Part shown: positions 27,396 to 44,586 of the stretch, one piece after another
Layout: each line of letters begins with the position of its first letter
Numbering within the stretch: position 1 is the stretch's first letter
Origin: Suttonella sp. R2A3
GTDB taxonomy: Bacteria > Pseudomonadota > Gammaproteobacteria > Cardiobacteriales > Cardiobacteriaceae
Assembly: GCF_021513215.1 (NCBI RefSeq)
Contig: NZ_CP090975.1
Span: forward strand, 1,582,001-1,646,000
Length of the DNA: 64,000 nt
Direction of reading: 5' to 3'
Made by a program: the position numbers and the translations under genes
The notes under the pieces: model-generated
What the model was told of the DNA's origin: nothing
The model's input: the letters and a program-made list of their open reading frames with translations, nothing else
The model's database searches: none

Positions 27396-28051
27396 TTACT
27401 CTTTCGGTGCGTCAGGCTGGTTTTCGGGGTGTGCGGCAATAAACTCAGGAAGCTCGTTGCAAGCCGCGTCTAAAGCGAGCAACTGCGGATAATCGTCAGA
27501 GGGCAGTTAAAGCGGCGCGCGTTATACATTTGCGGGATGATAAAAGCCTCAAGGTAGCCGGGCTCGCGACCAAGAGAAAACGTCATGCCGCGCAATACAT
27601 TACCAATTTGCGCCTCAAGGGCCGTGAATCCTTCAGCAATCCAATGCTGATACCATGCGGTCTTCTGTTCGTCACTAATCCCGAACTCACTGGTTAAATA
27701 CGTCAGCACTTTGAGATTATCCAATGGATGAATCTCGCAGGCGATGATTTGTGCCAGTGCACGCACATGCGCCTGCTTTGCAGGGTCTTCAGGCAGTAGT
27801 GCCGGCTCAGGGTGGCGCAGCTCAAGGTAATCGATGATCGCTTGTGACTGGCTGAATACACCGTGTTCATCTTGATAAACCGGGATCAAACCTTGGGGAT
27901 TGATTTCGCGGAAGTGTTTTTGATGTTGTTCACCGCCACCACGCACTAAATGTACCGTTTGATAATGGTAGTCTATGCCTTTGAGCGCAAGTGCGATGCG
28001 TACCCGATACGATGCGCTCGATCGCCAATAGCCATAAAGTGCTGGACTCAT
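27396..28051 (-). CDS. maiA: Maleylacetoacetate isomerase (zeta-class GST), frameshift near C-terminus as read
   Basis: Isomerises maleylacetoacetate to fumarylacetoacetate with glutathione. The zeta-class active site SSASYRVRIAL (residues 11-21) is present. The open frame stops early at 27470, but the normal tail continues in the next frame: after NARRFNCP the residues DDYPQLLALDAACNELPEF run on to a stop at 27396. One extra base in the GGG run at 27501-27503 restores a 218-residue protein of normal family length. The loss of one base in a homopolymer looks like a sequencing error. The start overlaps the fumarylacetoacetase stop by four bases (ATGA), so both are one operon. Confidence 0.88.
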
Positions 28052-29037
28052 GAAGCCCCCGGATATTTGCTGACTTTTTGGTCAATCGCGCCAAAAATAC
28101 TCTCGCCTTCTTTGTTAAACATCTCAATACGTACGGTATCGCCAAAGCGCATAAATGGTGTGCTTGCGCTGCCATCAGTGACGATTTCTAGCATGCGTTT
28201 TTCTGCCAAGCATGATGAACCGGTTGAACGGTCATAATTCGAGATTGTCCCTGAGCCAATAATCGCGCCAGCACCAAGCGGACGGGTTTTAGCGGCATGG
28301 GCAATCAGTTGAGGGAAATTAAAAGTCATATCGATGCCGGCGTTGGGCTCACCAAATAGTTCGTCGTTGATGTGGCTGGTTAATGGCAAGTGAATTTTGC
28401 CATCACGCCAGGCGTCATCAAGCTCATCAAGGGTTACTGCGACCGGAGAAAAGCTCGACGAAGGTTTGGATTGGAAAAACCCAAAGCCTTTAGAGAGCTC
28501 GTTTGGAATCAGGTTGCGTAAAGAGACATCATTAACCAGCATCAGTAATTTGATGTGTTTCTCAGCAGCCAGTGGAGAAACGCCCATTGGAACATCATCG
28601 GTAATGACTGCGATTTCTGCTTCAAGATCAATGCCCCAGTCTTCGCTGGCCAGAGGAATGGGTGCACGTGGTGGAATAAAGCTGTCAGACCCGCCTTGAT
28701 ATATTAAAGGGTCATGCCAAAATGATTCTGGCATTTTGGCACCGCGTGCCTGACGCACCAGCTCAACGTGGTTAACGTACGCACTACCATCAGCCCATTG
28801 ATAAGCACGAGGTAGTGGTGAAGCGCAATCATTTTGTTCAAAATCAAAGGCATCGCTAACCTCGCCTGCGTTAAGCGCACGATAACGATCTTGCAGTTTA
28901 GGCTCAATTTCCGCCCAATTATCAAGCGCTGCTTGTAGGGTAGGGGCAATATCATTGACTAACGCCGCACGGGTTAAATCGCGAGAAACAACAACCAGCT
29001 TGCCGTCACGCCCTTCATTTAATGAAGCGAGTTTCAT
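28048..29037 (-). CDS. fahA: Fumarylacetoacetase (fumarylacetoacetate hydrolase family)
   Basis: Splits fumarylacetoacetate into fumarate and acetoacetate, the last step of homogentisate breakdown. The protein is 329 residues from the ATG at 29037, which has AGGAG eight bases upstream; a longer frame starts at 29097 without a ribosome site. FAH-domain features include DWGIDLEAEIAVI with metal-ligand acidic residues, PLGAGAIIGSGTISN and DTVRIEM. Pairing with maiA and, elsewhere in the island, acetoacetyl-CoA synthetase argues for fumarylacetoacetate rather than fumarylpyruvate as the substrate. Confidence 0.9.
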   Translation of the reverse strand: MKLASLNEGRDGKLVVVSRDLTRAALVNDIAPTLQAALDNWAEIEPKLQDRYRALNAGEVSDAFDFEQNDCASPLPRAYQWADGSAYVNHVELVRQARGAKMPESFWHDPLIYQGGSDSFIPPRAPIPLASEDWGIDLEAEIAVITDDVPMGVSPLAAEKHIKLLMLVNDVSLRNLIPNELSKGFGFFQSKPSSSFSPVAVTLDELDDAWRDGKIHLPLTSHINDELFGEPNAGIDMTFNFPQLIAHAAKTRPLGAGAIIGSGTISNYDRSTGSSCLAEKRMLEIVTDGSASTPFMRFGDTVRIEMFNKEGESIFGAIDQKVSKYPGAS

Positions 29038-29065
29038 CGTTTTATTCTCCTGTTTTAATAGTGTG

Positions 29066-29097
29066 TCTATAGTTGCATACGAAACAATCCTATGCAA
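29066..29097 (-). promoter_or_regulatory. Predicted fahA-maiA promoter with palindromic operator
   Basis: On the minus strand a -10 like TATAGA (29066-29071) is directly preceded by GTTTCGTATGCAAC (29072-29085). This matches, at 12 of 14 positions and in the same place relative to the -10, the operator of the promoter at 44558-44586. An outer inverted repeat TTGCATA/TATGCAA spans 29073-29097. A MarR-type repressor is encoded nearby. Confidence 0.6.
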
Positions 29098-29099
29098 TG

Positions 29100-29117: not shown

Positions 29118-29182
29118 CTTAATGTTGTAGTGATGGTTCGGCGATAGATAGTCTGTTATGACAACGATATAGAGGAAACACA

Positions 29183-30208
29183 ATGATGAAAAAAAATGTA
29201 CAGCACTTGTTGATTGGTGCAGCGATTAGTGCGACAACGTTAGCCGCATCAAGTGCATGGGCAAAAACGGTGCTCACTGTATCCACTTGGGGATCACCAA
29301 ACCATGGCATTAATACCACTGTTTGGCCTGAGTGGGGCGAGGCTATTGAGGAGGCTACCGAGGGTCGTGTCACACTCGATGTGGTTTATGATTTAGGTCC
29401 ACCACAGGCACAGATGGACTTGGTTGCTGATGGTGTGGGTGATGTCAGCTGGATTTTCCATGGGCATTATCCTGGACGTTTTAGCGCCACCCAACTGCCG
29501 GAGTTGCCGTATTTTGTGGATATCTCATCTGAAGATATGTCAAAGGCCTATTGGCGCGTGTATAGCGATTATTTAAGTAAAGCCAACGAACATCGTGGTG
29601 TGGAAGTGTTGGGTGTTGGGGTACACGGCCCGGGACAAGTCTTTACTAAAGAGCCAGTAACTGGCTGGGCTGATCTTGATGGACAGCGGATGCGTGTTGG
29701 TGGTGGGATTATGAATACCATTGCCGAAGATCTGGGAATCGCTGGGGTTGCGCTGCCTCCAACAGGTACTTTTGAAGCAGCTTCACAAGGTGTGATTAGT
29801 GGGGCGTTATTGACCCTGGAAGCGTTAAAATCGTTCCGTTTGGCTGATGTGTTCCCGTACACCTATCAGGTGCCAGGTGGTTTATATCGTGGTAGCTTTT
29901 CAATCGTGGTTAACCCCGATCGCTGGGCGCAAATTGACGCAGCTGATCAAGAAGCGATCAAAGCAGTCTCAGGTGAGCAGCTTTCTGCACTATTTGGTCG
30001 CATGATGGATGAGCAAGATGCGATTGCCGTGGAGTATGCGAAAGGGATCGGTCATACCTTTAATCATGTGGATGACGCAGCTTTGGCTGAAATTAAAGAG
30101 CTGACTGCCAAACTTCCAGAGCAATGGGTGGCAGGAAATGAAGGTAACGGCTACGACGCACAAGCGGCGCTAGATGCGTTTCAAAAGGATATTGGTGTTG
30201 ATCAATAA
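29183..30208 (+). CDS. TRAP transporter substrate-binding protein, DctP family
   Basis: A periplasmic solute receptor of 341 residues with a Sec signal peptide ending near SSAWA (residues 1-28). It has the DctP fold features, including the conserved arginine region GQRMRVGGG that contacts substrate carboxylates. It is followed by the DctQ- and DctM-type membrane subunits after 17 bases. In the context of aromatic degradation genes the ligand is probably an aromatic carboxylate such as an arylacetate or arylpyruvate; this is inference. A GAGGAAACACA site precedes the ATG pair. Confidence 0.9.
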   Translation: MMKKNVQHLLIGAAISATTLAASSAWAKTVLTVSTWGSPNHGINTTVWPEWGEAIEEATEGRVTLDVVYDLGPPQAQMDLVADGVGDVSWIFHGHYPGRFSATQLPELPYFVDISSEDMSKAYWRVYSDYLSKANEHRGVEVLGVGVHGPGQVFTKEPVTGWADLDGQRMRVGGGIMNTIAEDLGIAGVALPPTGTFEAASQGVISGALLTLEALKSFRLADVFPYTYQVPGGLYRGSFSIVVNPDRWAQIDAADQEAIKAVSGEQLSALFGRMMDEQDAIAVEYAKGIGHTFNHVDDAALAEIKELTAKLPEQWVAGNEGNGYDAQAALDAFQKDIGVDQ

Positions 30209-30225: not shown

Positions 30226-30720
30226 ATGACACGCCTTAGCCAATGGATAGAGCGGATTTTTCTGCCTTTTCTCACCTGGCCCGCGATGTTCATGCTGATG
30301 GCGATGATGCTGATTACTGTGGTTGATGTGTTGGGCGTTAAACTCTTTAGCGCCCCCATAAAGAGCAGTATTGAGCTGACTCAACTGGCATTGGCGGTAA
30401 TGACTTTTTGTATCTTTCCGTTAGTCTGTTGGGATGAGTCGCATATTAGCGTGGATTTACTGGATCAATTTACCCCTTCTTGGTTGCATCGCGCCCGGCG
30501 AGTGCTTATTCATATTGGTGCGAGTATTGCGCTGGCCTTGCTGGGTTGGAAACTGCTCGAATTTGCCCAACGCTCGGTAAGTTATGGCGATGTAACAGAA
30601 TTTTTGCGTATCCCGATTAGCTATTTGATTACTGTAATGGCGGTGATGGGGTGGCTTTCTGCGTTGATTTCATTGCTTAAAGCGATGGTGGTTGCTTTGG
30701 GCAAAAAGGATAAAGTATGA
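30226..30720 (+). CDS. TRAP transporter small membrane subunit, DctQ family
   Basis: A 164-residue protein with four hydrophobic segments and the conserved FCIFPLVCWDESHISVDL-type loop between segments two and three. It bridges the solute receptor and the large permease. It starts 17 bases after the receptor gene behind GAGGAG and overlaps the next gene by four bases. Confidence 0.9.
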   Translation: MTRLSQWIERIFLPFLTWPAMFMLMAMMLITVVDVLGVKLFSAPIKSSIELTQLALAVMTFCIFPLVCWDESHISVDLLDQFTPSWLHRARRVLIHIGASIALALLGWKLLEFAQRSVSYGDVTEFLRIPISYLITVMAVMGWLSALISLLKAMVVALGKKDKV

Positions 30721-32027
30721 CAGAGTCGTTGTTTGGTATTGGCGCGCTGATGGTATTGTTGTTTGCGCGTGTACCACTGGCATTTGCTATGGCATTCATA
30801 GGGTTTGCTGGCTATTATTTTTTACTCGGCGGAAACTATAACGCAGCAATGGCGATGACCACCCGTCGTATTGTTGATACCGCGATGGAATACAATTTAT
30901 CGATTGTTCCGTTGTTTATCTTGATGGGTAATTTTGTTAATAAAGCCGGGCTTTCAGATGCGATCTATCGAGCGTCGAATGCCTTTATTGGGCACTTCCG
31001 TGGTGGGCAGGCGATGGCGACGATTCTTGCCTGTGGTGGCTTTAGTGCGATCAGTGGTTCGAGTCTGGCGACTGCTGCAACGATGGCTAAAGTGGCGATG
31101 CCGCAAATGCGGCAATATGGCTACGATGATAGTCTGGCTTCAGCGTCAATAGCCGCTGGTGGAACGCTAGGGATTTTGATCCCTCCGAGTATTATTCTAG
31201 TGATTTACGGGATTATTACGGAACAGAACATTATCGATCTATTTGCTGCAGGGCTGATTCCGGGGATCCTCGGCGTGATCCTGTATTTATTAGCTGTCGT
31301 TTATTCGGTTCGTCGACGCGAAGGCTGTACGCGTTCTGATAAATCTTCTTGGTATGAGCGCTGGCAGAGTTTGCTCGGTGTGAGCCATACGATGCTGTTG
31401 TTCTTTCTGGTTATTGGTGGGATTTATGCGGGATGGTTTACCCCTACCCAAGCAGCTGCAATCGGCGCCTTTGGGGCAATGATTTTAGCTCTGGCTAATC
31501 GTAAACTGAGTTGGGGTGATTTGCGTGAGGTGCTGATTGATAGTGCACGCACGAGCTGTATGCTGTTCTCGATTATCATTGCGGCGCTGATTTTTTCCAA
31601 TTTTGTTAATCGTGCCGGACTACCAAACGCCTTGCTGGGCATGATCAGTGCGGCTGAGCTTTCACCGATTATGGTGATCATGTTGATTATTGTCATCTAT
31701 TTTGTGCTCGGCTGTATGCTTGAAAGTATGTCGATGCTGTTACTGACCGTACCACTGTTTTTCCCGATTGTTGCGGGATTAGGCTTTGACTTGGTGTGGT
31801 TTGGCGTTTTAGTGGTGGTTGCGATTGAAATCAGCTTGATCACACCACCAGTTGGTATGAATGTCTTTGTTTTGCAAGGGGTGTTGCCCGATGTCACTGC
31901 AGGCACTATTTTCCGCGGGATTATGCCGTTTCTCGTGGCCGATATTATACGTATACTGCTTATCGCGCTGATACCAGGGCTTTCCCTCTGGCTACCGACG
32001 CTGATTAATCAATGGACAGGAGGATGA
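30717..32027 (+). CDS. TRAP transporter large permease, DctM family
   Basis: A 436-residue permease with about a dozen hydrophobic segments and family motifs including AAGGTLGILIPPSI and EISLITPPVGMNVF. It moves the substrate with sodium or proton symport across the inner membrane. It overlaps dctQ by four bases, and its stop lies just before the marR start, so the regulator is part of the same transcript. Confidence 0.93.
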   Translation: MTESLFGIGALMVLLFARVPLAFAMAFIGFAGYYFLLGGNYNAAMAMTTRRIVDTAMEYNLSIVPLFILMGNFVNKAGLSDAIYRASNAFIGHFRGGQAMATILACGGFSAISGSSLATAATMAKVAMPQMRQYGYDDSLASASIAAGGTLGILIPPSIILVIYGIITEQNIIDLFAAGLIPGILGVILYLLAVVYSVRRREGCTRSDKSSWYERWQSLLGVSHTMLLFFLVIGGIYAGWFTPTQAAAIGAFGAMILALANRKLSWGDLREVLIDSARTSCMLFSIIIAALIFSNFVNRAGLPNALLGMISAAELSPIMVIMLIIVIYFVLGCMLESMSMLLLTVPLFFPIVAGLGFDLVWFGVLVVVAIEISLITPPVGMNVFVLQGVLPDVTAGTIFRGIMPFLVADIIRILLIALIPGLSLWLPTLINQWTGG

Positions 32028-32029
32028 CG

Positions 32030-32479
32030 ATGGGTGAGGGAAGTTCGTTTGCTTTGGTGCAATTTTTACCCTATCAACTCAATATGCTCGCCGATAAAGC
32101 CTCATGCGAACTTTCACGAATTTATCACGAAGATTTTGGCATTAGTGTGCCGCAGTGGCGGGTGTTGGTGTGGTTGCAAGCAGAAGAAGATGTTACCGCG
32201 CAATTTATCGCTGATGCGACCCGTATGGATAAAACTAAAACCTCACGCGCTATCGCCGGCCTGGTTGATCGTGGCTATGTGTTGCGTGAGGCTGATCAAC
32301 GTGATTTACGACAAAATCGCTTACGTCTAACCGAACAAGGTGACGCGCTGCTGGCCGTGTTATTGCCGCTCGCTCAAGCTTGGGAAAACCAATGGCTTGA
32401 GGTGTTAAGTGAAGACGAACAGCAGCAATTTAATAACTTATTATCGCGCCTAGAAGCGCGACTTGGCACCATAATATAA
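32030..32479 (+). CDS. MarR-family transcriptional regulator of the island
   Basis: A 149-residue winged-helix protein: recognition region DVTAQFIADATRMDKTKTSRAIAGLVDRGYV and wing DQRDLRQNRLRLTEQG follow the MarR pattern. I choose the ATG at 32030 because AGGAGG (32018-32023) is correctly spaced for it; ATGs at 32012 and 32024 are too close or upstream of that site. MarR proteins bind short palindromes and often release DNA on binding phenolic ligands, so it is the best candidate to bind the shared operators at 29072-29085 and 44564-44577. Being inside the TRAP-aacS operon suggests autoregulation. Confidence 0.87.
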   Translation: MGEGSSFALVQFLPYQLNMLADKASCELSRIYHEDFGISVPQWRVLVWLQAEEDVTAQFIADATRMDKTKTSRAIAGLVDRGYVLREADQRDLRQNRLRLTEQGDALLAVLLPLAQAWENQWLEVLSEDEQQQFNNLLSRLEARLGTII

Positions 32480-32498: not shown

Positions 32499-34451
32499 AT
32501 GGCTAATGTATTGCTTTGGCAACCAGATCATTCGCGTATTGAACAAGCGAATGTATCTTTATTGATTCAATCACTGCACAACGATTATCCTGAGGTTAGC
32601 GACTATGCGAGTCTGCATGCGTTTAGTCTCAAACATCAGGCGGCATTTTGGCGGCATTTGGTTGAATTTTGTCAACTCCGTGGCGATTTTCCTGATCCGG
32701 TGATCGAGCAACCAGAAAGCGCTGAGCATGCGCAATTCTTCCCCAATGCTCGGCTCAATTTCGCTGAAAACATGCTTCAATACGGTGAGCATCACCCTGA
32801 TGAGGTGGCGATCCTTTATAAAGTGGAAGAAAACAGCATTGGCTCGTTAAGTTGGTGCGATCTGCGTGCGCAAGTGAGTCAATTGCAGCAGGTGTTACAG
32901 GCGCGAGGGGTAGGTTCAGGGGATGTGGTTGCAGGTTATTTGCCAAATTTCCCGCAAACCGTAATCGCCATGCTCGCCACCACATCGTTGGGTGCGGTGT
33001 GGAGCTCGACTTCGCCAGATTTTGGTAGTGAAGGGGCGATTGACCGTTTTGGCCAAACACGCCCGAAAGTGCTCTTTAGCGTTGATGGCTATACCTATAA
33101 CGGTAAAGTGCATACCTGCCGTGATAAGGCACAAGCCGTGGTCTCAGCGGTGGATAGCATCGAATGCTGGATAGAAATCAGCAATATTGGCGCTGAGGCA
33201 GCGCGTTTAACCTGTGCAGAGTCTTGGGATGAGGTGCTCGCGGCTTACTCGGCTAAGCCGCTAACCTTTGTGCCTTGTGAGTTTAATGACCCGCTGTATA
33301 TTCTCTATTCATCAGGGACTACCGGTAAACCTAAATGCATCATTCATAGTGTGGGCGGGATGCTACTGAATAATCTCAAAGAGCATCGCCTACATTGTGA
33401 TGTTCATCCTGGAGATCGGGTGTTTTATTTCACTACCTGTGGTTGGATGATGTGGAATTGGCTGGTAGGCAGCCTGGCCAGTGGCGCGACGATTTGCTTA
33501 TACGAAGGTTCCCCGTTTTACCCAAATGGTGAGGTGCTTTGGGATTACGCTGAAACCGCTAAATTTAGTTTGTTTGGAACGGCTGCGAAATATTTGGCCA
33601 CCCTTGAAGAGCAGCAGATTACACCAGTAACCAGCCATGATTTGCGTGCTTTACGCACATTGTGTTCAACCGGTTCTGTGTTGGCGCCTGAGCAATTTGA
33701 TTATGTCTATCAGTCGATTAAAAGCGATATTCACCTCACCAGTATCGCGGGCGGTACTGATATTTGTGGGTGTTTTGCGATCGGTAATCCGCTGACGCCG
33801 GTTTATCGAGGTGAAACACAGGGTAGTGGTTTAGCGCTTGATGTACAAGTGTTTGACGAACAGGGACAGTCGGTGCGTGAACAGCGGGGTGAATTGGTGT
33901 GTTGTAATGCGTTTCCAAACCGCCCACTAGGGTTTTATGGTGATGAGGATGGCAGTCGCTATCATCAGGCGTATTGGGCGCGTTTTCCAGGTGTTTGGCA
34001 CCATGGTGATTTTGTCGCGCGTAGTGCTCATGATGGGCTGGTGTTCTATGGACGTTCGGATGCGGTGTTAAACCCTGGTGGTGTACGTATTGGTACGGCA
34101 GAGATTTATAACCAGGTGAATGCCATGGAAGCGATTAGCGATAGCGTGGTGATTGGTCAAGATTGGGATAACGACTGTCGGGTGATTTTATTTGTGGTGC
34201 TCAAAGAGGGCTACACACTCGACGATACGCTGGTGAGCGCAATTAAAAAGCATATTCGTGAGCAATGTACGCCACGACATGTACCGGCAAAAATCTTAGC
34301 AGTTGCTGATATCCCACGAACAAAATCGGGCAAAATTGTTGAGCTCGCGGTGCGTGATGTGGTTCATGGTCGTGAGGTTCAGCAGCTCAGTGCGCTTGCG
34401 AACCCACAGGCATTAAGCTATTTTGCTGAACGAGAAGAATTAGCTGATTGA
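32499..34451 (+). CDS. aacS: Acetoacetate-CoA ligase (acetoacetyl-CoA synthetase)
   Basis: Activates acetoacetate with ATP and CoA. The 650 residues show the adenylate-forming P-loop YSSGTTGKPK, the AacS-type segment GRSDAVLNPGGVRIGTAEIYN and the C-terminal catalytic lysine in PRTKSGK. The N-terminal FPNARLNFAENML motif is typical of AacS rather than acetyl-CoA synthetase. Since acetoacetate is a product of fumarylacetoacetase, this gene links the ring-cleavage pathway to thiolase and acetyl-CoA. It starts 20 bases after marR. Confidence 0.93.
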   Translation: MANVLLWQPDHSRIEQANVSLLIQSLHNDYPEVSDYASLHAFSLKHQAAFWRHLVEFCQLRGDFPDPVIEQPESAEHAQFFPNARLNFAENMLQYGEHHPDEVAILYKVEENSIGSLSWCDLRAQVSQLQQVLQARGVGSGDVVAGYLPNFPQTVIAMLATTSLGAVWSSTSPDFGSEGAIDRFGQTRPKVLFSVDGYTYNGKVHTCRDKAQAVVSAVDSIECWIEISNIGAEAARLTCAESWDEVLAAYSAKPLTFVPCEFNDPLYILYSSGTTGKPKCIIHSVGGMLLNNLKEHRLHCDVHPGDRVFYFTTCGWMMWNWLVGSLASGATICLYEGSPFYPNGEVLWDYAETAKFSLFGTAAKYLATLEEQQITPVTSHDLRALRTLCSTGSVLAPEQFDYVYQSIKSDIHLTSIAGGTDICGCFAIGNPLTPVYRGETQGSGLALDVQVFDEQGQSVREQRGELVCCNAFPNRPLGFYGDEDGSRYHQAYWARFPGVWHHGDFVARSAHDGLVFYGRSDAVLNPGGVRIGTAEIYNQVNAMEAISDSVVIGQDWDNDCRVILFVVLKEGYTLDDTLVSAIKKHIREQCTPRHVPAKILAVADIPRTKSGKIVELAVRDVVHGREVQQLSALANPQALSYFAEREELAD

Positions 34452-34477
34452 AGCATTCATTAAATGAAGGAACAACG

Positions 34478-36173: not shown

Positions 36174-37595
36174 CTATGGGTAAACATGCAAGGTTTGGAT
36201 GCTGGTGAATTCTTTTAATCCAGCTTCGCTAAACTCGACCCCAAAACCAGACTGTTTTATTCCACCAAATGGTGCGTGAGGTTGGATAACCGCATGGTGG
36301 TTAATCCATACTGAGCCGCACTCAAGTCGGCTGGCGATTTCTCGTGCTCGTTCGATGTCTTGTGACCAAACCGATCCACCCAGACCATTTGGACTATTGT
36401 TTGCATGGACAATCGCCTCCTCAACGTCAGAGAAGCGGATAATTGGCAGGATTGGGCCAAACTGTTCTTCATCAACCAAGCGGGCACCATCTTTGATATC
36501 GGCGACCAAGGTAATTGGGTAATAGTAACCATTGGTGTTGGTTTGTTCGCCACCGGTTAAAAAGCGTGCGCCGCGCTCTTTAGCATCCGCGGCTAAATCC
36601 ATAACCAGTTGGAGCTGGTCTGGGTTCTGTAATGGGCCAAAATCGCTATCTGGGTTCATGCCATTACCAGTGATCACACTGTTAGCAATTTCGGTCAGGC
36701 CTTCACAAATCGCATCATAAACGCCATCTTGGACATACAGGCGCTTGAGTGCGGCACAAGTTTGCCCATTATTGATAAACGCGGTGGCAAAAATTTTACC
36801 AACCGCTGAGGCTACATCAACATCATCCAACACAATCGCCGCATCGTTACCACCAAGCTCAAGGGTAAGGCGCTTGAGGTTGCCGGCAGCGCTTTTCATA
36901 ATGTGACGACCAGTTGGCGTTGAACCGGTAAACACGATTTTTGAAATATCTTCGTGGGCGGTGATCATTCGACCGATGCCACCATCACCACTCACGACAT
37001 TAAGAACGCCAGCTGGGAGAATTTCGTTGGCGAGTTCAGCAAAGCGTAGGGTGGTAAGTGGGGTGAGTGACGAAGGCTTCATCACCACTGTATTACCTGC
37101 AAGCATCGCTGGAATGATATGCCAGATACCAATTAATAATGGATAGTTCCATGGGGTGATCGAACCCACCACACCTAACGGCTTACGGTGAACTTCAATC
37201 GTTAAATCATCGCCTTCTTGAATGGTTTCAACCGGTAAGGTTAGGCCCGCGGTTGCGCGAATCCATGCCAAAGTTCCGCCCGTTTCAAAGCCAGCCCCCA
37301 TATCAGCAAAGCCATTTTGTGGTTTGCCTTGTTCTTTGGTGAGTAGCTCGGAGAGTTCGACCATATTGGCTTCAACCGCATCAGCGAGTTTCAACATTAA
37401 ATCGCTACGTTCTTGCCAAGGTTTTTCCGCCCAGGCTGGGAAGGCTTCTTTTGCTGCCGCAACAGCATTTTCGAGGTCTTGTTCTGAGGCTTGAGGACAA
37501 GCTGCGACCACAGATTTATCCGCGGGGTTGATAACGTCAAAGGTGTTAGCGGTGGAGACGGCTTTACCGTTAATCCATAAAGAAAAGGTTGTCAT
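36174..37595 (-). CDS. NAD(P)-dependent aldehyde dehydrogenase, probable arylacetaldehyde dehydrogenase
   Basis: A 473-residue ALDH with catalytic Cys280 in NNGQTCAAL, the general-base glutamate in LELGGND, the Asn of the oxyanion hole in TPWNYP and the coenzyme loop FTGSTPTGR. It is the last gene of the minus-strand operon with the amine dehydrogenase and should oxidise the arylacetaldehyde from amine oxidation or arylpyruvate decarboxylation to an arylacetate. Substrate specificity is inferred from context; sequence alone gives a general ALDH. It lies 145 bases downstream of the metallo-beta-lactamase-fold gene, with an inverted repeat in between. Confidence 0.88.
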   Translation of the reverse strand: MTTFSLWINGKAVSTANTFDVINPADKSVVAACPQASEQDLENAVAAAKEAFPAWAEKPWQERSDLMLKLADAVEANMVELSELLTKEQGKPQNGFADMGAGFETGGTLAWIRATAGLTLPVETIQEGDDLTIEVHRKPLGVVGSITPWNYPLLIGIWHIIPAMLAGNTVVMKPSSLTPLTTLRFAELANEILPAGVLNVVSGDGGIGRMITAHEDISKIVFTGSTPTGRHIMKSAAGNLKRLTLELGGNDAAIVLDDVDVASAVGKIFATAFINNGQTCAALKRLYVQDGVYDAICEGLTEIANSVITGNGMNPDSDFGPLQNPDQLQLVMDLAADAKERGARFLTGGEQTNTNGYYYPITLVADIKDGARLVDEEQFGPILPIIRFSDVEEAIVHANNSPNGLGGSVWSQDIERAREIASRLECGSVWINHHAVIQPHAPFGGIKQSGFGVEFSEAGLKEFTSIQTLHVYP

Positions 37596-37740: not shown

Positions 37741-38703
37741 TTAGTCTTGCAGTTGATCCCATACTTCACGATCGCGCTCTTCGGTCCAAATACGCGGCCA
37801 ATCGATACCATCGTATTCATCCCATAGACGCTGCACATCAAAGGGTAAGCAATGTTCAAAAATTGGCCAGGCGCCAAAGGTCGGTGCAAGGTGCTCGTGA
37901 GTAGCTAAAAATGCTTCTTTGAGCGAACCGCCACGACCATGAACTTCACCAACCTTATCAATCATGCCTTGAAGGAAGCTGCGGGTTTGTTCGATCGCGG
38001 CATCAACATTATCGCGTCCTTTAACCACTGGGCCACGGCCACCAATGAGGTATTCAGCTCCAAGTGCTTTGAGGTTATCGAGCGTGCCACGTGCCCAATC
38101 AAAGTGAAAGGCGTCACCTGTGTAGAGTGCGGCTTCAGCTTCAACCAAATCGCCCGCAAATAAGACTTTATGTTTTGGCAGCCAACCAATGATATCGCTG
38201 GCCGTATGACCACGGCCATAGAATGATAAATACAGGCTGCCACGGTCGCCACCAAGTGGAATTTCTAAACGATCATTGAATGTGATGTCAGGGTGAGTAA
38301 GTCCGGGGATGGTTTGCGGTTCGCGGAACAAACGTGGCATGCGACCAAACTCACTATCCCAATCTTGCTTACCACGTTCTTCAATCAATTTTTTGGTGGT
38401 CTCATGCATGATGATGCTTTCGGCCTCAAACGCTGATGCGCCTAATACACGCACGGCATGGTAATGGGTAAGCACTAAATATTTGACCGGTTTGTCGGTA
38501 TGTTCACGAAGTCGCGCTAACCATTCTTTTGCGGCTGCCGGCGTGGCGAGTGCTTCTAAACAAACGACAAAATCTTCACCTTCTACAGCGCCAACGTTGG
38601 GGTCACCTTCGGCCGTTTGTGCATATACGCCATCAGCGATGACTTCGACTGTCGCTTTCTTTTCGCCGAGATCAGCAGATGATGCAAAAGGTTTCTTACT
38701 CAT
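37741..38703 (-). CDS. Metallo-beta-lactamase-fold protein with altered metal site
   Basis: A 320-residue MBL-fold protein, 13 bases beyond the cytochrome gene. The canonical HxHxDH motif reads His80-Tyr-His82-Ala-Val84-Arg85 (THYHAVRVLG), so the Asp and His ligands of the second metal site are replaced. The later GHTAS and FAGD motifs are kept, so one metal site may remain. MBL-fold proteins recur next to quinoprotein dehydrogenases and next to DUF2783/FAD-hydroxylase genes; their role is unknown. It might hydrolyse an intermediate, or serve in cofactor maturation. No signal peptide is seen, so it is cytoplasmic. Confidence 0.8.
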   Translation of the reverse strand: MSKKPFASSADLGEKKATVEVIADGVYAQTAEGDPNVGAVEGEDFVVCLEALATPAAAKEWLARLREHTDKPVKYLVLTHYHAVRVLGASAFEAESIIMHETTKKLIEERGKQDWDSEFGRMPRLFREPQTIPGLTHPDITFNDRLEIPLGGDRGSLYLSFYGRGHTASDIIGWLPKHKVLFAGDLVEAEAALYTGDAFHFDWARGTLDNLKALGAEYLIGGRGPVVKGRDNVDAAIEQTRSFLQGMIDKVGEVHGRGGSLKEAFLATHEHLAPTFGAWPIFEHCLPFDVQRLWDEYDGIDWPRIWTEERDREVWDQLQD

Positions 38704-38718: not shown

Positions 38719-39189
38719 TTATTGGGTTGAATCGGGATAGTTGCCGGCTGCTTTGAGCGCGTCAACCAGTTCTTCTCGTTTGGCGAGGATATCGCCATCA
38801 TAAGCCTTGCGCAGGCGACTAACCTCTTCAGCCGTGAAAGGCTTAAAGGTTTCATCGACGGTATTCGGGCTAAAGGTATAAATCATCCAATTAGTGATTT
38901 CTGCTAAGTCTTGATTATCAATGGGGGCGCCAAAAGAACCGGGCACTTGGATTAAATAACGGCGCCCCTCTTCTAAGCGGGCGAAGTGGCCCAATGTGTC
39001 GGTCATTCGCGGCACATCATGTTCAGGGAAACCTTCACCTCCAGGTAGATGGCAGCCCTGACAATGCAGCTGATACAAGCTTTCCATACGCGCAGGATCG
39101 CTCACGCCTGGCATGGTGCCAGTAGTAGCAAATACAGCAGTAATCGCGATGGCGGTCACCGTTGTGGTCATGAGCGTTTTACGGATCAT
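38719..39189 (-). CDS. Periplasmic mono-haem cytochrome c of the amine dehydrogenase cluster
   Basis: A 156-residue protein with an N-terminal signal or anchor segment (residues 8-26) and one haem motif, Cys43-Gln-Gly-Cys46-His47. It follows the amine dehydrogenase small-subunit gene with a four-base overlap, the place where the Alcaligenes faecalis aau cluster has a small mono-haem cytochrome. It probably carries electrons from the tryptophan tryptophylquinone enzyme, directly or via a copper protein, to the respiratory chain. Confidence 0.88.
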   Translation of the reverse strand: MIRKTLMTTTVTAIAITAVFATTGTMPGVSDPARMESLYQLHCQGCHLPGGEGFPEHDVPRMTDTLGHFARLEEGRRYLIQVPGSFGAPIDNQDLAEITNWMIYTFSPNTVDETFKPFTAEEVSRLRKAYDGDILAKREELVDALKAAGNYPDSTQ

Positions 39190-39704
39190 TTTTCTACTTC
39201 TATACCAACCACAACCGCGGTTGAGCAGTTATAGATTGCACTGCTTGTACCCAAGCACCAGTTGATATCGTTTGATTTTCCTTGGAAGTACATCGGGCGA
39301 TCGCTTTCGTTGCGCGTACACAAGCAATTACCACAGCTGCTTTTACCGCAACAATCGTTATACGAAATGATGTAGTTTTTGCCATCAACTGGGTTATTAC
39401 ACGTACCAATCCAGGTGATGGGGGACATTTCTGTGCCGGGTGGGCAGGTATTTGCACTACCGCCGCAGCAGCCGCAAAGGAAGCCGTCGATGGCACAAAA
39501 ACGCCAGTAATCACAGCTGTTTGGATCGCCTTCCTCACCAGGGAATTTGGGTTGATTGCTTTCAGAAGCGCGTGCGACCGGTAAGAGTGGGGTTGCGCCC
39601 ACACCAACCAAGGCAGCGCCAAGGCCAGTGAGTACACTGCGTCGAGAGGTAGATTGTGCTACGCGACGCACGGTTTTTTCAGTAAATTTATCTAACCATT
39701 TCAT
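39186..39704 (-). CDS. aauA: Aralkylamine (aromatic amine) dehydrogenase light chain, TTQ subunit
   Basis: The small catalytic subunit bearing tryptophan tryptophylquinone made from two of its own Trp residues. The 172-residue precursor has a twin-arginine-like leader (TSRRSVLTGLGAAL). The cysteine-rich body has CDYWRFCAIDGFLCGCCGG, CPPGT and YNDCCG segments typical of MauA/AauA. The predicted TTQ pair is Trp98 (ITWIGTC) and Trp149 (DINWCLG), 51 residues apart as in methylamine and aromatic amine dehydrogenases. The catalytic Asp is Asp117, 19 after the first Trp, as in known enzymes. It oxidises tyramine, phenylethylamine or similar amines in the periplasm. Confidence 0.93.
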   Translation of the reverse strand: MKWLDKFTEKTVRRVAQSTSRRSVLTGLGAALVGVGATPLLPVARASESNQPKFPGEEGDPNSCDYWRFCAIDGFLCGCCGGSANTCPPGTEMSPITWIGTCNNPVDGKNYIISYNDCCGKSSCGNCLCTRNESDRPMYFQGKSNDINWCLGTSSAIYNCSTAVVVGIEVEK

Positions 39705-39719: not shown

Positions 39720-40337
39720 TTACGCCATTTTTGGGTCACTGGTGGATTTGCTGGATAAATAGCTTTGGATATCGCTGAAGCCACGTTCTTTGGCCTCAAA
39801 CAGGCTTTCTAAGTGTTCACGAGAGTTGATGATGCCAAGCGCAACAATCTGTTGCTGTTCATCAATTAACACACCATAAGGTAGTTTAGACACACCATAG
39901 GTCTTGCCGAGCGCCTCAGACAATACATACGGGTAGGCTTCTAAGGACTCACGCTCGATAAACGCGCGGTGCTCGCCGAGGTTATCACCATCACTGGCTA
40001 AAATCACATCGAGCCAGCCGCTTTCGGCTTTAGCCGCAGATTTAAGCGGTTTGAGTATTTGCTTACAAATAGGGCAATCGGGGGAGAGAAAAAACATCAA
40101 CGTCGCACGATTGCCCGCAGCGCCAATGCTCAGCACTTCTTCATCAATGGTTTTGACGCTGATCGCGGGGGCTTGTTCGCCAGCCTTAACGCTTTTATTA
40201 ACGGCTAGGGCGCCTGCTGGGGCGATACGCTCGTATAACACACCGATTTGTCGTGCCAGCGAAAAGACTAAGACGCCTAGTGCGATGACGGCAACAAATA
40301 AGATGATGACAGCAGTGGTTAAAATCGTTTGACTCAT
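39720..40337 (-). CDS. mauD: Methylamine/aralkylamine utilisation protein MauD, thioredoxin-like
   Basis: A 205-residue membrane-anchored thioredoxin-fold protein. A single N-terminal hydrophobic segment (residues 6-27) is followed by a periplasmic domain with redox motif Cys88-Pro-Ile-Cys91. MauD helps form the six disulfides of the small subunit in the periplasm. The ATG at 40337 overlaps the mauE stop by four bases; an upstream in-frame ATG lies inside mauE and is unlikely. The aauA start follows 15 bases after its stop. Confidence 0.92.
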   Translation of the reverse strand: MSQTILTTAVIILFVAVIALGVLVFSLARQIGVLYERIAPAGALAVNKSVKAGEQAPAISVKTIDEEVLSIGAAGNRATLMFFLSPDCPICKQILKPLKSAAKAESGWLDVILASDGDNLGEHRAFIERESLEAYPYVLSEALGKTYGVSKLPYGVLIDEQQQIVALGIINSREHLESLFEAKERGFSDIQSYLSSKSTSDPKMA

Positions 40338-40846
40338 GCGAAGGTTCCTTTTTGACTGATCCAATAACTCCGATTGGCCAGTAGTTGATTAACAGTGAAA
40401 TAGGTGAGTAATAATGACAGCGCCGCTAAAATTGTCATGACCGCGCTGCTGATACTCATCGGTACGGGTGCACTGAAAGCTGCAACAAGCGCGAGCGCAA
40501 TCAATGCCGCGTTGCGCAGCAATAAATGCCAGCTGATGTGGATAGGCACACCACCACAACCACAGTCTATATCGCTACGCCCACGGGCGAGATTGATGCC
40601 CATCGCCAGTGCGTAAGCCGCAAAAATTGCCGCTGCTAAAAGTGCACCGATGGGGCTTAGCCATAATAGTAATGCTGTGAGCGCTTCTAAGCCCATAATC
40701 ACAAACGCGGTTGCACGCACAGCATCTAAGGGCAGCAGGCGGTAAGCCGCTAGTGCTGATTGAAAATCGGCATTGTGCTGCCATTTATGCCATGCCGCAC
40801 CAGCAAGCAAGGCGCTAAGAGTGAGGGTTGCAATCCAATAAAGCAT
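40334..40846 (-). CDS. mauE: Methylamine/aralkylamine utilisation protein MauE
   Basis: A 170-residue inner-membrane protein with four to five hydrophobic segments and the MauE motif DIDCGCGG, resembling the membrane parts of DsbB/VKOR-like redox relays. It is thought to work with MauD in disulfide formation for the TTQ subunit. It starts two bases after the large-subunit gene ends and overlaps mauD. Confidence 0.92.
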   Translation of the reverse strand: MLYWIATLTLSALLAGAAWHKWQHNADFQSALAAYRLLPLDAVRATAFVIMGLEALTALLLWLSPIGALLAAAIFAAYALAMGINLARGRSDIDCGCGGVPIHISWHLLLRNAALIALALVAAFSAPVPMSISSAVMTILAALSLLLTYFTVNQLLANRSYWISQKGTFA

Positions 40847-40848
40847 GA

Positions 40849-42006
40849 TTACATCTCGTTTGCGTGAATGATAAACGGCGTTTCTTGACCAAATGGTGCC
40901 AAGGTGCGGACGTATTTACCGTCTTGATACACGTCAACCTGCATTTCAGCATTAGTCACTAACAAATAAGGGTTTTCACCATGGGTTGCTGCGACTGAGA
41001 CCCCCCAGGTTTCCAAGGTGATTTTATTGACGCGCTCTTGTTTGTTTGCATCATAAACCCATAACTCTGGACCACCATCTTTGTGGCTGCCTTCGTAGCC
41101 TTCTGGATGCATCAACACATAAAACAGGCCATTATCATCTTGAGCATTGAGTTGCCAGCCGCCTGGACGATAACCGGCTGCTTTGTCTTCTTCGTTCAGT
41201 AGTGACCAGGTTTCACCAAGAACAGCTGCCTCACCGCTCAAATCAACGTTATAGACTTTCCCATCGAAGGCGATGAAATAAGCCTGACTGCCAATAATGA
41301 CCGGTTTTTCAAAAATGGGATTATCCATCGGACTGAAGAATGAATCGCCTTGCGATACTGCGCTCGCTTTCCCTTGATCATCAACATGGTAGCTGGCAAA
41401 TGAACCATTGACACACAGACTGGAGAAGTTGCTCCTTCCAGTTGGGTAGTTGAGTACACAGCCTGGTGTTGGCTGTACATCGGTTACACTCCGTGCTTCA
41501 ACGTCCACTACCGTCACAGACGTTGCTGGTGACATATTGGTGATCACAAGATGTTTGTCATCGTTGACTAATAATGCGCTGTAGCGCTCCGGCATCGAAT
41601 TCATGCGCAATTTGTCTTCAGGTAAGACTATTTCACCTTTAGGGGAAAGGGTGGCTGGGTCGTAGATGGTGACGACATCCGTACGCTCACCACGAGAGCC
41701 GCGGCTATAAAACGTTTCGATCACATAAAATTCATTGCGTTTATTTGATTGCGCAAAGGATGAAATAAACGAGGCATCAACCATACCTTTGTATTGTTCA
41801 GGGCCAGTTTCTGCTGCCGGATCTAGCACCATATAATGCCCGTTACTCATGTGAAAGAATGCGCCATCGTGAGCAAATACCCATTGCTCAGGGTAGTCTG
41901 CAGGCAATGTTTGCACAACCTTGAGCTTTTCCGGGGCGATTTCGGCTTGCGCAAATGCTGCACTCAGTATGGCGAGTACAGCAAGCGGTTGAGTGAATCG
42001 TTTCAT
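40849..42006 (-). CDS. aauB: Aralkylamine (aromatic amine) dehydrogenase heavy chain
   Basis: The large periplasmic subunit, a seven-bladed beta-propeller of the MauB/AauB family that packs around the TTQ subunit. From the ATG at 42006 (GAGGAG upstream) the protein is 385 residues with a Sec signal peptide ending at AFAQA (about residue 21). Blade motifs include EFYVIETFYSRGSRGERTD-like and LFYVLMHPEGYEGSHKDGG-like segments, seen here at about residues 100 and 295, the latter being a strong family hallmark. Gene order aauB-mauE-mauD-aauA-cytochrome c equals the known aau cluster. Confidence 0.92.
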   Translation of the reverse strand: MKRFTQPLAVLAILSAAFAQAEIAPEKLKVVQTLPADYPEQWVFAHDGAFFHMSNGHYMVLDPAAETGPEQYKGMVDASFISSFAQSNKRNEFYVIETFYSRGSRGERTDVVTIYDPATLSPKGEIVLPEDKLRMNSMPERYSALLVNDDKHLVITNMSPATSVTVVDVEARSVTDVQPTPGCVLNYPTGRSNFSSLCVNGSFASYHVDDQGKASAVSQGDSFFSPMDNPIFEKPVIIGSQAYFIAFDGKVYNVDLSGEAAVLGETWSLLNEEDKAAGYRPGGWQLNAQDDNGLFYVLMHPEGYEGSHKDGGPELWVYDANKQERVNKITLETWGVSVAATHGENPYLLVTNAEMQVDVYQDGKYVRTLAPFGQETPFIIHANEM

Positions 42007-42010
42007 AAAG

Positions 42011-42211
42011 TTACTCCTCGAGGGTATGAGATTTAGCAATAGTAAAGGCTTCTTCAATCACTGATACATCGCCGATATGATTGGCGAGGAGCAGCAATGC
42101 CTTGCTATAAAGCGCCGGAATGTCAGCAAAGTCGACGCCTTCTTGTAAATGAACAAACGCAGCGTACAGGTCGTCAGGGTTGGCGCTGTTATTCGTGGTT
42201 TTCAGTGGCAT
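42011..42211 (-). CDS. Small DUF2783-like protein
   Basis: A 66-residue protein with the pattern NPDDLYAAF...LLLLANHIGD, which I recognise as the DUF2783 family, usually found beside MhpA-like FAD hydroxylases and MBL-fold proteins. Function is unknown. There is no signal peptide or cysteine. It has a good ribosome site (GAGGAT) and stops four bases before the amine dehydrogenase heavy-chain start, so it is translated with the aau genes. The overlap of an alternative aauB start with this gene is rejected. Confidence 0.75.
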   Translation of the reverse strand: MPLKTTNNSANPDDLYAAFVHLQEGVDFADIPALYSKALLLLANHIGDVSVIEEAFTIAKSHTLEE

Positions 42212-42231
42212 AGTATCCTCATGTGATGGTT

Positions 42232-42345: not shown

Positions 42346-43953
42346 TCAAGTATGGGCAGTGGCACGATGTACGGCATCGATGACTGCTTCGCGGTTGTAT
42401 TTTTTCCAGCGTGCGGCAATATGCTGGTCAGGGCGAATCAAATATACACTGCCTGGTTTCATGCTATAACGATCGGCAATGACGCCATCGCTGTCTTCGA
42501 TATCACGACCAATCACTAATGCTTTTACGGGAATACCATCGACATCGAGGTCTTCGACATTTGAGCTTTGATCAGCGAGTAACACAAATCCCTTGCCCAG
42601 ATGACGTAATAAAAAGCTCGGTTTACCGTTAACACGAATCGGGGCATCAGGACAAAATGCACCTGGGGCACAGCGTGCACGAAAACCAATCGTATCAGGG
42701 CTATTGAGCGGGGATTCATGATAATTGGTGGCGGTAGACAGGCGGCCACTATTAACTAAAGGACGCGCAAACTCGTACGTTTTCGCAAGCTCGAGCACAC
42801 TATCGCGCAAAATCTGACTCGCCTGACTTTTTGGGGTGATGAAATCGGTGGCACGGCTGGAATGTTGGATGTTTTCATCGGCTGCGTAATGTCGCTCAGC
42901 CATATAGCTGTCGAGTAAACGCTCTGGCGCCTTACCATCCAGGACTAATTTTAGCTTCCAGATCAAGTTATCAACATCCGCAACGCCTGTGTTGGCACCA
43001 CGTGCACCAAATGGAGAGACCTGATGTGCCGCATCGCCGGCAAATAACACCCGCTGATGGCGGAATTCACCTATGCGACGACAGGCAAAGCGATAAACAG
43101 AAACCCATTCCAGGGCGAACTCGCGATCACCGAGCATTTTTTTCAACAGTGGGAGGACATTCTCTGGCTTTTTCCATTCCTCAGCATCAGCTTCGTTGCC
43201 GAGCTGGAAATCGATCCGCCAAATGTTATCAGACTGCCGATGTAATAAAACCGATTGGCCAGGATGGAAGGGTGGGTCGAACCAGAACCAGCGTTCGCTC
43301 GGATAATCCCCGTGCATCACAATATCGGCAATGAGGAACTGGTCGTCGAACACTCGGCCTTCGAAATCTGCACCCACTTTGCGACGGATGCTGCTGCTCG
43401 CACCATCACAGGCAATAACCCACTGCGCTTCACTAGAAAAAGACCCATCAGGCGTTTTTACGGTGAGCACAACATGATTATCGTGTTGCTCTAAGTCTTC
43501 CACACGATGCTTCCAGCGTAGATCAATCAACGGATGTTTGTCACAAGCCTCAACAAGATACTCTTCTAAATAATATTGTTGCAAGTTGATCATCGCGGGT
43601 AGTTCATGACCACTTTCTGGTAATAAATCAAATTGATAGGCAAGTTCTTCATGAAAAAAAGTTTTGCCAATTTTCCATTTCACCCCTTGTTTTAACATCG
43701 GCTCGGCAACGCCTAAGCGTTGCCATATTTCTAAAGCCCGTTTGGCATAACAAACGGCACGTGAACCAACACTTACGGTATTGTTATCGTCAAAAATCAC
43801 ACATTTGATGCCACGTGCCGCACAGTCTAGTGCGGCAGTTAGCCCAATGGGACCTGCGCCAATAATGGCAACGTCATGACGTTGTGCAACACCGCTTTGT
43901 TGTTCTTCAGAGCAGCGATAAGCAAACTCTGGATATGTGTAGGTTGACATCAT
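42346..43953 (-). CDS. FAD-dependent aromatic hydroxylase, MhpA-like (group A flavin monooxygenase)
   Basis: A 535-residue flavoprotein monooxygenase. It shows the FAD Rossmann motif GAGPIG (residues 32-37), the DG motif ACDGASS and the GD motif GDAAHQVSPFGARGANTG, plus the C-terminal thioredoxin-like domain of 3-(3-hydroxyphenyl)propionate hydroxylases. In this island the likely reaction is hydroxylation of an arylacetate (for example 4-hydroxyphenylacetate 1-hydroxylation to homogentisate). Another possibility is hydroxylation of a Trp of the amine dehydrogenase small subunit, as a flavin enzyme does for the related CTQ enzymes. It is 29 bases downstream of the VOC gene. Confidence 0.85.
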   Translation of the reverse strand: MMSTYTYPEFAYRCSEEQQSGVAQRHDVAIIGAGPIGLTAALDCAARGIKCVIFDDNNTVSVGSRAVCYAKRALEIWQRLGVAEPMLKQGVKWKIGKTFFHEELAYQFDLLPESGHELPAMINLQQYYLEEYLVEACDKHPLIDLRWKHRVEDLEQHDNHVVLTVKTPDGSFSSEAQWVIACDGASSSIRRKVGADFEGRVFDDQFLIADIVMHGDYPSERWFWFDPPFHPGQSVLLHRQSDNIWRIDFQLGNEADAEEWKKPENVLPLLKKMLGDREFALEWVSVYRFACRRIGEFRHQRVLFAGDAAHQVSPFGARGANTGVADVDNLIWKLKLVLDGKAPERLLDSYMAERHYAADENIQHSSRATDFITPKSQASQILRDSVLELAKTYEFARPLVNSGRLSTATNYHESPLNSPDTIGFRARCAPGAFCPDAPIRVNGKPSFLLRHLGKGFVLLADQSSNVEDLDVDGIPVKALVIGRDIEDSDGVIADRYSMKPGSVYLIRPDQHIAARWKKYNREAVIDAVHRATAHT

Positions 43954-43982
43954 GGTGTGTAATCCTTTCGCTGACAGCTAAT

Positions 43983-44528
43983 TTAGCTATTAGCGAACTC
44001 ATTTTCATGAATCCACGCGGCATGTTTTGGTGCTTTTTTGGTTTTTGCCCATTCTTCGATCATCGGCACAGCAACCTCATTGAGCTTTTCAAGTTCACCA
44101 GGCTTATCGGTGCGAACGGTGAGTTCCATACGGTGACCATTAGGGTCAAAGAAATAGATCGATTTAATAATGCCATGATCGGTTACACCAAGCACATCAA
44201 GCCCTTTGCTTTCGAGATCAGCTTTGGCTTCTAATAGCTCTTCCATACTGCCTAATTCGAAGGCGATATGCTGTACCCATTCTGGGGTATTGCGGTCACG
44301 GTCCATTTTAGGGTGTGTTGGAATTTCAAAAAACGCCAAAATGTTGCCATTACCCGCATCCATAAATAAATGCATATAAGGATCGGGGGCTTTGGTCGAA
44401 GGAACCTGGTCTTCTGCAATCGCTAAGAGGAATTTCATATTCAACTTGTCGCGGTAAAACTCCATAGTTTCTTTAGCGTCATGACAGCGATAAGCCACGT
44501 GGTGGATTTGTTTGATATTAATACTCAT
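43983..44528 (-). CDS. VOC-superfamily protein, candidate ring-cleavage dioxygenase
   Basis: A 181-residue protein with one vicinal-oxygen-chelate domain. Possible metal ligands are His9 (IHHVAY), a central His in MHLFMD or VQHIAFEL and the Glu of GHRMELT. Type I extradiol dioxygenases and glyoxalases share this fold. It is the first gene of the minus-strand operon and no cupin-type homogentisate dioxygenase lies in the island, so it may open the ring made by the downstream hydroxylase; a glyoxalase-like role cannot be excluded. The ATG at 44528 follows AAGGAGA; the longer frame from 44570 starts inside the promoter. Confidence 0.8.
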   Translation of the reverse strand: MSINIKQIHHVAYRCHDAKETMEFYRDKLNMKFLLAIAEDQVPSTKAPDPYMHLFMDAGNGNILAFFEIPTHPKMDRDRNTPEWVQHIAFELGSMEELLEAKADLESKGLDVLGVTDHGIIKSIYFFDPNGHRMELTVRTDKPGELEKLNEVAVPMIEEWAKTKKAPKHAAWIHENEFANS

Positions 44529-44557
44529 GTTTATCTCCTTGTTTTGATTATGGCCCC

Positions 44558-44586
44558 AATATAGTTTCATCCGAAACAGTTGTCAA
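44558..44586 (-). promoter_or_regulatory. Promoter of the VOC-hydroxylase-aau operon with embedded palindromic operator
   Basis: On the minus strand TTGACA (44581-44586) and TATATT (44558-44563) are 17 bases apart. The spacer contains GTTTCGGATGAAAC (44564-44577), a perfect inverted repeat with GTTTC/GAAAC arms. A repressor there would block RNA polymerase directly. The same element precedes fahA. The transcript would begin near 44551, about 23 bases before the VOC start. Confidence 0.75.

Follow-up and report, generated by a model that had tools for sequence, protein, structure and literature searches.

The amine dehydrogenase AauAB of Alcaligenes faecalis acts on tyramine and phenylethylamine. 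Homogentisate is formed by the two-component 3-hydroxyphenylacetate 6-hydroxylase MhaAB, composed of the 566-aa MhaA and the 60-aa MhaB (PMC3053370). In Acinetobacter baumannii no hmgA gene was found, and the gene situated between hmgC and hmgR encodes a type I ring-cleaving dioxygenase, according to a 2020 paper (PMC7646211). Here we describe a gene island in a 64,000-nucleotide stretch of the genome of Suttonella sp. R2A3 (contig NZ_CP090975.1, positions 1,582,001 to 1,646,000), hereafter the window, whose own numbering is used below unless a genome position is indicated. The island occupies approximately 27396-44586, between the RNase G gene (25925-27379) and the ribosomal protein gene rpsH (45076). 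It is quite probably a catabolic unit for the degradation of hydroxylated aryl compounds via homogentisate, with a vicinal oxygen chelate (VOC) protein in the place of the dioxygenase HmgA.

In the proposed pathway, periplasmic AauBEDA together with a cytochrome c would oxidize a hydroxyarylethylamine, a cytoplasmic thiamine diphosphate (ThDP)-dependent decarboxylase would handle the matching arylpyruvate, and a tripartite ATP-independent periplasmic (TRAP) carrier might import the arylacetate itself. An aldehyde dehydrogenase would then yield arylacetate, which MhaAB would hydroxylate to homogentisate. The VOC protein would open the ring to give maleylacetoacetate, the isomerase MaiA and a fumarylacetoacetate hydrolase (FAH) would release fumarate and acetoacetate, and the ligase AacS would convert the latter to acetoacetyl-CoA. 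We infer all of these activities, as well as the substrate and the joint control of the genes by a MarR-family regulator. An earlier note on this DNA, made from the sequence alone, had proposed a similar route; its amine and keto-acid entries, aldehyde, arylacetate and homogentisate intermediates, ring cleavage, MaiA/FAH steps and acetoacetate activation are retained here, but its choice of substrate is not. The kinds of genes in the island are all known, and it is their arrangement with a VOC gene in the place of hmgA that looks new.

Predicted hydroxylase and substrate of the pathway

The mhaA-like gene (42346-43953, minus strand) encodes a hydroxylase dependent on flavin adenine dinucleotide (FAD) of the NF006002 type (795 bits against a cut-off of 416). 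The adjacent gene (42011-42211, minus strand) encodes a 66-aa DUF2783 protein (PF10932, 53.5 bits), whose size and position suggest that it is the coupling protein MhaB. Because the MhaA and MhaB sequences were not in hand, we predict the match of this pair to MhaAB from family, size and genomic context.

Neighborhoods of the FAD protein relatives were compared in 80 named loci, the best 80 of at least 591, using flanks of up to 10 kb and often less. Around these genes we found mhaB in 78 of the 80 loci, a VOC gene in 63, a gene for a protein of the metallo-beta-lactamase (MBL) fold in 40, an FAH gene in 34 and a MarR-family gene in 33, as well as an HmgA relative in 13, three of them distant (24-25% identity). 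Relatives of the FAD protein also occur in 53 plasmid records, of which five were examined. On the plasmids of Dinoroseobacter, Sinorhizobium, Tropicibacter and Roseomonas, the genes for the MBL-fold, FAD and DUF2783 proteins are found together with hmgA and an FAH gene; maiA is also present at the Sinorhizobium and Roseomonas loci, and an acetoacetate-CoA ligase gene at the former. On a Sphaerotilus plasmid the same three genes lie beside a VOC gene and fahA. The earlier proposal of homogentisate as an intermediate is thus strengthened by the match of the gene pair to MhaAB (PMC3053370) and by its association in other genomes with hmgA or a VOC gene and often with an FAH gene and maiA.

By analogy, the likeliest substrates of the island are 3-hydroxyphenylacetate and its amine and keto-acid precursors, with 4-hydroxy compounds being possible. 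The activity of the characterized A. faecalis AauAB on tyramine and phenylethylamine would instead favor a para-hydroxylated or unsubstituted route, in which these amines yield 4-hydroxyphenylacetate or phenylacetate and a 1-hydroxylase forms homogentisate with a side-chain shift; we regard this alternative as possible but rather unlikely. In its para-hydroxylated form it agrees with the observation that MhaA of Paraburkholderia xenovorans LB400 was raised on both 3- and 4-hydroxyphenylacetate, a difference that was not statistically significant, and with the supposition of the authors that MhaAB acts on the 4-isomer too (PMC10983741). Against it, the same paper reports that MhaAB of Pseudomonas putida does not recognize 4-hydroxyphenylacetate, and for this reason 3-hydroxyphenylacetate is our first choice. 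In the unsubstituted form, phenylethylamine or phenylacetate would require a second hydroxylase, and none was found among the island genes scanned; conversion of phenylacetate to the dihydroxylated acid by a single flavin hydroxylase is unlikely. Tyramine and phenylethylamine, which had earlier been put forward as the natural substrates, are therefore unsupported.

Amine dehydrogenase genes within the mha operon

The genes aauB (40849-42006, open frame from 42057), mauE/aauE (40334-40846), mauD/aauD (39720-40364) and aauA (39186-39704) and a cytochrome c gene (38719-39189), all on the minus strand, appear to form an aromatic amine dehydrogenase set with predicted activity on arylethylamines. 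The heavy chain AauB (PF06433, 128 bits) and the light chain AauA (PF02975, 168 bits), which is the tryptophan tryptophylquinone (TTQ) subunit, both have aromatic amine dehydrogenase as their best solved match (2h3x and 2agl, respectively). Both chains score below the cut-offs of the methylamine dehydrogenase models and are closer to aromatic amine dehydrogenase than to methylamine dehydrogenase (175 vs 106 bits for the heavy chain, 161 vs 138 bits for the light chain). The light-chain residues W98 and W149, 51 residues apart, align with the positions of the two TTQ tryptophans of aromatic amine dehydrogenase. MauE is recognized by PF07291 (88 bits), and MauD scores 166 bits with TIGR02661, the cut-off of which is 189. 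The cytochrome c, presumably the electron acceptor of the dehydrogenase, was assigned by its CxxCH motif at residue 43 and by gene position, its PF13442 score (E 2.4e-4) being below the cut-off. The last gene on this strand encodes an aldehyde dehydrogenase (36174-37595, minus strand; PF00171, 506 bits), presumed to act on arylacetaldehyde; its best NCBIfam models are under their cut-offs (aminobutyraldehyde dehydrogenase, 460 bits; the phenylacetaldehyde dehydrogenase StyD, 412 bits). The island had been called self-contained, which is apt for the catabolic route but not in one respect, as no MauG-type gene was found among the island genes scanned. Two genes of the CCP/MauG family are located at genome positions 584236 and 601061, about 1 Mb away.

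The aau genes are bracketed by mhaAB and the VOC gene on one side and by the MBL gene on the other, all on one strand, and 4 bases separate the end of mhaB from the likely start of aauB (42006). Amine dehydrogenase genes inside an mha operon look like a new layout. No aauA relative was found near any of the 80 named mha loci; on the Sphaerotilus plasmid, however, a shortened aauA that continues into a cytochrome c gene is located about 2 kb from the MBL-mhaAB-VOC-fahA genes. This decayed version suggests that the pairing of aau and mha existed elsewhere.

Several genomes bear on whether the two modules belong together. One genome of the same family has its aau genes next to those for cytochrome c and a 73% identical aldehyde dehydrogenase, without the MBL gene; a Cupriavidus plasmid carries aau with two cytochromes and an aldehyde dehydrogenase; and in another genome (G037) aau and mha are present on different contigs. 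The same-family genome, G037 and the lack of aauA at the 80 loci would agree with a chance insertion that made neighbors of two modules serving different substrates. We find this improbable in view of the position of aau within the mha unit, on one strand and separated from mhaB by 4 bases, and of its decayed counterpart near the Sphaerotilus mha genes. It is further opposed by the mha-VOC loci of Acidocella (L065) and two metagenome-assembled genomes (L069 and L078), each of which includes an aldehyde dehydrogenase gene 57-58% identical to that of the island. An amino acid permease gene is also present at L065 and L069 and a DAO-type oxidase gene at L065, and these could represent another amine entry; the L065 locus has hmgA as well. 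On plasmid pNL2 of Novosphingobium aromaticivorans (L155), amine dehydrogenase genes are flanked by Rieske dioxygenase genes on one side and genes for the ortho-cleavage of catechol on the other, a hint that a different aromatic amine serves as substrate there.

VOC protein as a candidate homogentisate dioxygenase

The VOC gene (43983-44528, minus strand, open frame from 44570) stands first in the unit that includes mhaAB and aau. The genome is a single contig of 1.99 Mb rated 100% complete, and a whole-genome search returned no match to the HmgA models TIGR01015 or PF04209; 4-hydroxyphenylpyruvate dioxygenase (HPPD) was not found in it either. Since no HmgA was found, the VOC protein becomes the key ring-opening step and a candidate homogentisate dioxygenase standing in for HmgA. 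The earlier note had correctly listed the protein and had given it no role.

We analyzed the co-occurrence of VOC and HmgA in two sets of genomes. The first set comprised 46 hand-picked mha genomes, namely those of 43 of the 80 named loci, G105, G115 and the window's own. A close VOC protein is encoded in 39 of them, where HmgA is absent in 23 cases and present in 16. The seven genomes without a close VOC include two with HmgA, four with a distant HmgA-like protein (one of which, G435, also has a 35% identical VOC) and one, G433, with neither (Fisher p 0.043 for the association). The second set sampled the class evenly with 369 genomes, and a close VOC was defined in it by E below 1e-60. HmgA was found in none of the eight genomes with a close VOC, the window's included, and in 12 of the 16 mha genomes without one, in one case (G115) as the distant form (p 0.0013); because the two groups differ in pathway, this comparison describes the company that each protein keeps rather than one pathway with two dioxygenases.

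In six of the seven other close-VOC genomes of the class sample, the VOC gene is a neighbor of hpd. Of the six hpd genes, five score above the TIGR01263 cut-off and one carries the N-terminal domain of HPPD. An FAH gene is present in all six clusters, maiA in four and an acetoacetate-CoA ligase gene in one. These clusters should make homogentisate from tyrosine, yet the genomes lack HmgA, which leaves VOC as the probable cleaving enzyme.

The AlphaFold model of the VOC protein (predicted local distance difference test score 82.5) has 9u42 as its top structural match, with a Z score of 19.6 and a root-mean-square deviation of 2.1 over 167 residues at 64% identity; the next match has a Z score of 15.5 and 16% identity. 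Searches including Foldseek place the identity to 9u42 at 62-64% over the whole domain. This entry, released in July 2025, is titled 'Crystal Structure of Homogentisate 1,2-Dioxygenase from Acinetobacter in Complex with Zn ion'. The dioxygenase reading was drawn from gene context independently of this title, which agrees with it; since the title already names a homogentisate 1,2-dioxygenase, a VOC-type enzyme of this kind is not new as such. No relevant paper on 9U42 was found, nor any paper describing a VOC-type homogentisate dioxygenase, most subscription journals being outside the search. Residues H23, H24, H67, H101, H132, Y139 and E149 are invariant across 48 sequences, and we take H132 and Y139 to fit the ring-cleaving pattern of catechol dioxygenase residues.

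A number of observations weigh against this assignment. The 16 close-VOC genomes of the first set that also carry HmgA, together with eight of the 80 named loci in which both are encoded locally, suggest that VOC may have another role there; the same eight loci led us to drop strict mutual exclusion of the two proteins. G170, the seventh of the other close-VOC genomes in the class sample, shows no pathway gene around its VOC in a stretch of 18.5 kb. HmgA is likewise missing from four of the 16 class-sample mha genomes without a close VOC, a 43% identical VOC being present in two of these and a third being 58% complete, with G091 left unexplained; G433 has neither protein. The first set was chosen by hand from loci close to the FAD protein of the window itself, and in the seven other close-VOC genomes no mhaA was found at E 1e-60, with up to three candidates scored per genome. 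The identity of 9u42 is known from its title alone, and the maiA gene of the island is frame-broken. One of the active-site histidines of catechol 2,3-dioxygenase is presumably not matched by a histidine in VOC. Finally, the Acinetobacter protein encoded at the corresponding place was judged probably inactive in 2020 (PMC7646211). Our data argue against inactivity of the VOC family, leaving that A. baumannii strain aside.

An accessory or detoxifying VOC protein, similar to glyoxalases or thiol transferases, with the ring opened by another, unrecognized enzyme, would suit the eight loci with both genes and the weak and mixed family matches, none of which reaches its cut-off (39 bits for catechol 2,3-dioxygenase, at most 39 for Fos-type thiol transferases), but is very unlikely given that HmgA occurs in none of the eight close-VOC class genomes, that hpd and an FAH gene adjoin VOC in six of the seven others, that 9u42 is named a homogentisate 1,2-dioxygenase, and that H132 and Y139 fit the ring-cleaving pattern.

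Four mha loci (L033, L090, L096 and L098) encode a distant HmgA-like protein (24-25% identity), with no nearer HmgA and no close VOC in the neighborhood. Whole-genome searches of the L033, L090 and L098 genomes agree with this, that of L090 having only a 35% identical VOC. The distant protein is perhaps a third kind of homogentisate dioxygenase.

Organization of the island and other genes

The island consists of two facing halves split by a strong two-way terminator (36131-36156), the 11-pair stem of which has a T-rich tail on each strand. In the left half, the minus strand carries maiA and the FAH gene, and the plus strand carries dctPQM, marR, aacS and the ThDP decarboxylase gene. The right half, entirely on the minus strand, reads from 44586 downward as VOC, mhaA, mhaB, aauB, mauE, mauD, aauA, cytochrome c, MBL and aldehyde dehydrogenase. 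VOC, MarR, DctPQM and the aldehyde dehydrogenase passed the Pfam cut-offs. All genes that the earlier note had named were confirmed at the positions given for them; the genes for DUF2783 and the MBL-fold protein had been overlooked.

The MBL-fold protein (37741-38703, minus strand) has an altered metal motif, HYHAVR, found in 56 of 56 aligned relatives, among which R223 is likewise conserved. We take these residues to replace the usual metal ligands of the fold. The protein model matches 8d2z, known by title only, and ordinary beta-lactamases. Judged by gene neighborhoods, the protein belongs with mhaAB as a candidate third mha component without an assigned step. Two roles were considered for it and rejected. 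A TTQ-maturation factor, suggested by weak 'quinoprotein relay' matches, is at odds with the presence of the MBL gene in 40 and of aauA in none of the 80 mha loci, and no signal peptide was seen in the translation by eye. A ring-opening role disagrees with the occurrence of the MBL gene beside hmgA, and no MBL gene turned up in any of the seven close-VOC stretches taken from the class sample.

Among the lower pathway genes, maiA (27470-28051, minus strand) encodes a maleylacetoacetate isomerase that scores above the TIGR01262 cut-off (233 bits). Its reading frame is interrupted close to the 3' end. The open frame terminates at 27470, and conserved-looking sequence continues in another frame to a TAA at 27396-27398, from which the earlier note had begun the island. 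Either a mutation or an assembly error may be the cause. The FAH gene (28048-29037, minus strand, open frame from 29097) encodes a relative of 3lzk of the shorter type, with PF18288 and PF01557; it scores 26.5 bits with TIGR01266, the cut-off of which is 375. The earlier note had listed it as a fumarylacetoacetase. The gene for the acetoacetate-CoA ligase AacS (32499-34451, plus strand) is recognized by TIGR01217 (817 bits).

The TRAP carrier genes dctP (29183-30208; PF03480), dctQ (30226-30720; PF04290) and dctM (30717-32027; PF06808) are on the plus strand. The best solved relative of the solute-binding protein DctP is 4p56, presumably a mandelate binder. TRAP genes 54-69% identical to those of the island adjoin mha in Marinospirillum and one other genome (L046 and L039), which suggests that the carrier imports arylacetate. 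The ThDP decarboxylase (34448-36109, plus strand) is of the indolepyruvate/phenylpyruvate type (TIGR03394, 766 bits) and matches 2nxw over its full length (618 bits), which we take to be the Azospirillum phenylpyruvate decarboxylase.

Promoters and regulation

The upstream regions of the FAH and VOC genes share the element GTTTCGNATGNAACTATA, about 30 bases before each likely start, in line with the island being one unit. The FAH copy (29068-29085, minus strand) resembles a promoter or operator. Before VOC, the element overlaps the region bounded by the -35 and -10 boxes of a promoter-like site, TTGACA-17-TATATT (44558-44586, minus strand), which agrees with the consensus at 11 of 12 positions and precedes the VOC-mha-aau unit. 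The 18-base element was read off its two sites, so that its search count is not an independent test, and two or more matches were obtained in 10 of 100 shuffles as well. An exact search for its 14-base core in 159 loci found it only in copies of the window itself. The promoter scan gave 27 sites against 26.1 expected, and we therefore quote only two near-perfect promoters. The MarR-family regulator (32012-32479, plus strand; PF12802) is HmgR-like by context, and its control of the genes is a guess.

Ribosomal operon at the edge of the island

The spc operon is split in this genome. The genes rpsH, rplF, rplR, rpsE, rplO and secY follow the island (45076-48856), and the S10 genes up to rplE and rpsN sit 517 kb away on the opposite strand (genome position 1109501, L132). 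In 13 of 13 relatives checked, rpsN directly precedes rpsH. Here rpsH has its own promoter (44875-44902), matching the consensus at 12 of 12 positions. The split may be either a real rearrangement or an assembly fault.

Implications and comparison with known systems

More broadly, we lean toward the view that in many proteobacteria HmgA has given way to a VOC-fold homogentisate dioxygenase, in tyrosine pathways (hpd) as well as in those for 3-hydroxyphenylacetate (mhaAB), and that the island is a single unit feeding meta-hydroxylated arylethylamines and arylpyruvates into an HmgA-free route, with the metal-site-altered MBL-fold protein as an unrecognized third mha component. If this is true, genomes that seem to lack a homogentisate dioxygenase may hold one annotated as 'VOC family protein' or 'glyoxalase'. 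Predictions that treat the ring-cleavage step of the pathway as missing would then need correction; a text search of the GapMind paper (PMC9007349) found no mention of homogentisate. The 2020 judgment that the Acinetobacter protein is probably inactive (PMC7646211) would likewise deserve reexamination. Meta-hydroxylated aromatic amines would become growth substrates of a small-genome bacterium, and an MBL-fold protein would be a traveling companion of mhaAB.

With the aauBEDA cluster of A. faecalis the island shares the order aauB-E-D-A-cytochrome c, as well as the best solved match of both subunits; no mha or ring-cleavage genes are known in that cluster, whereas the island has candidates for both. 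The Azospirillum phenylpyruvate decarboxylase is of the same family as the decarboxylase of the island, which differs in lying in an operon with a TRAP carrier, MarR and AacS. The set of A. baumannii serves tyrosine (hpd, hmgB and hmgC; PMC7646211), whereas that of the island would serve an MhaAB route, HPPD having not been found in the genome. The MhaAB route of P. putida U and P. xenovorans LB400 likewise combines an FAD hydroxylase and a coupling protein of about 60 aa with homogentisate, MaiA and FAH (PMC3053370). That route uses HmgA, whereas the island has a VOC protein instead and carries amine dehydrogenase genes within the operon.

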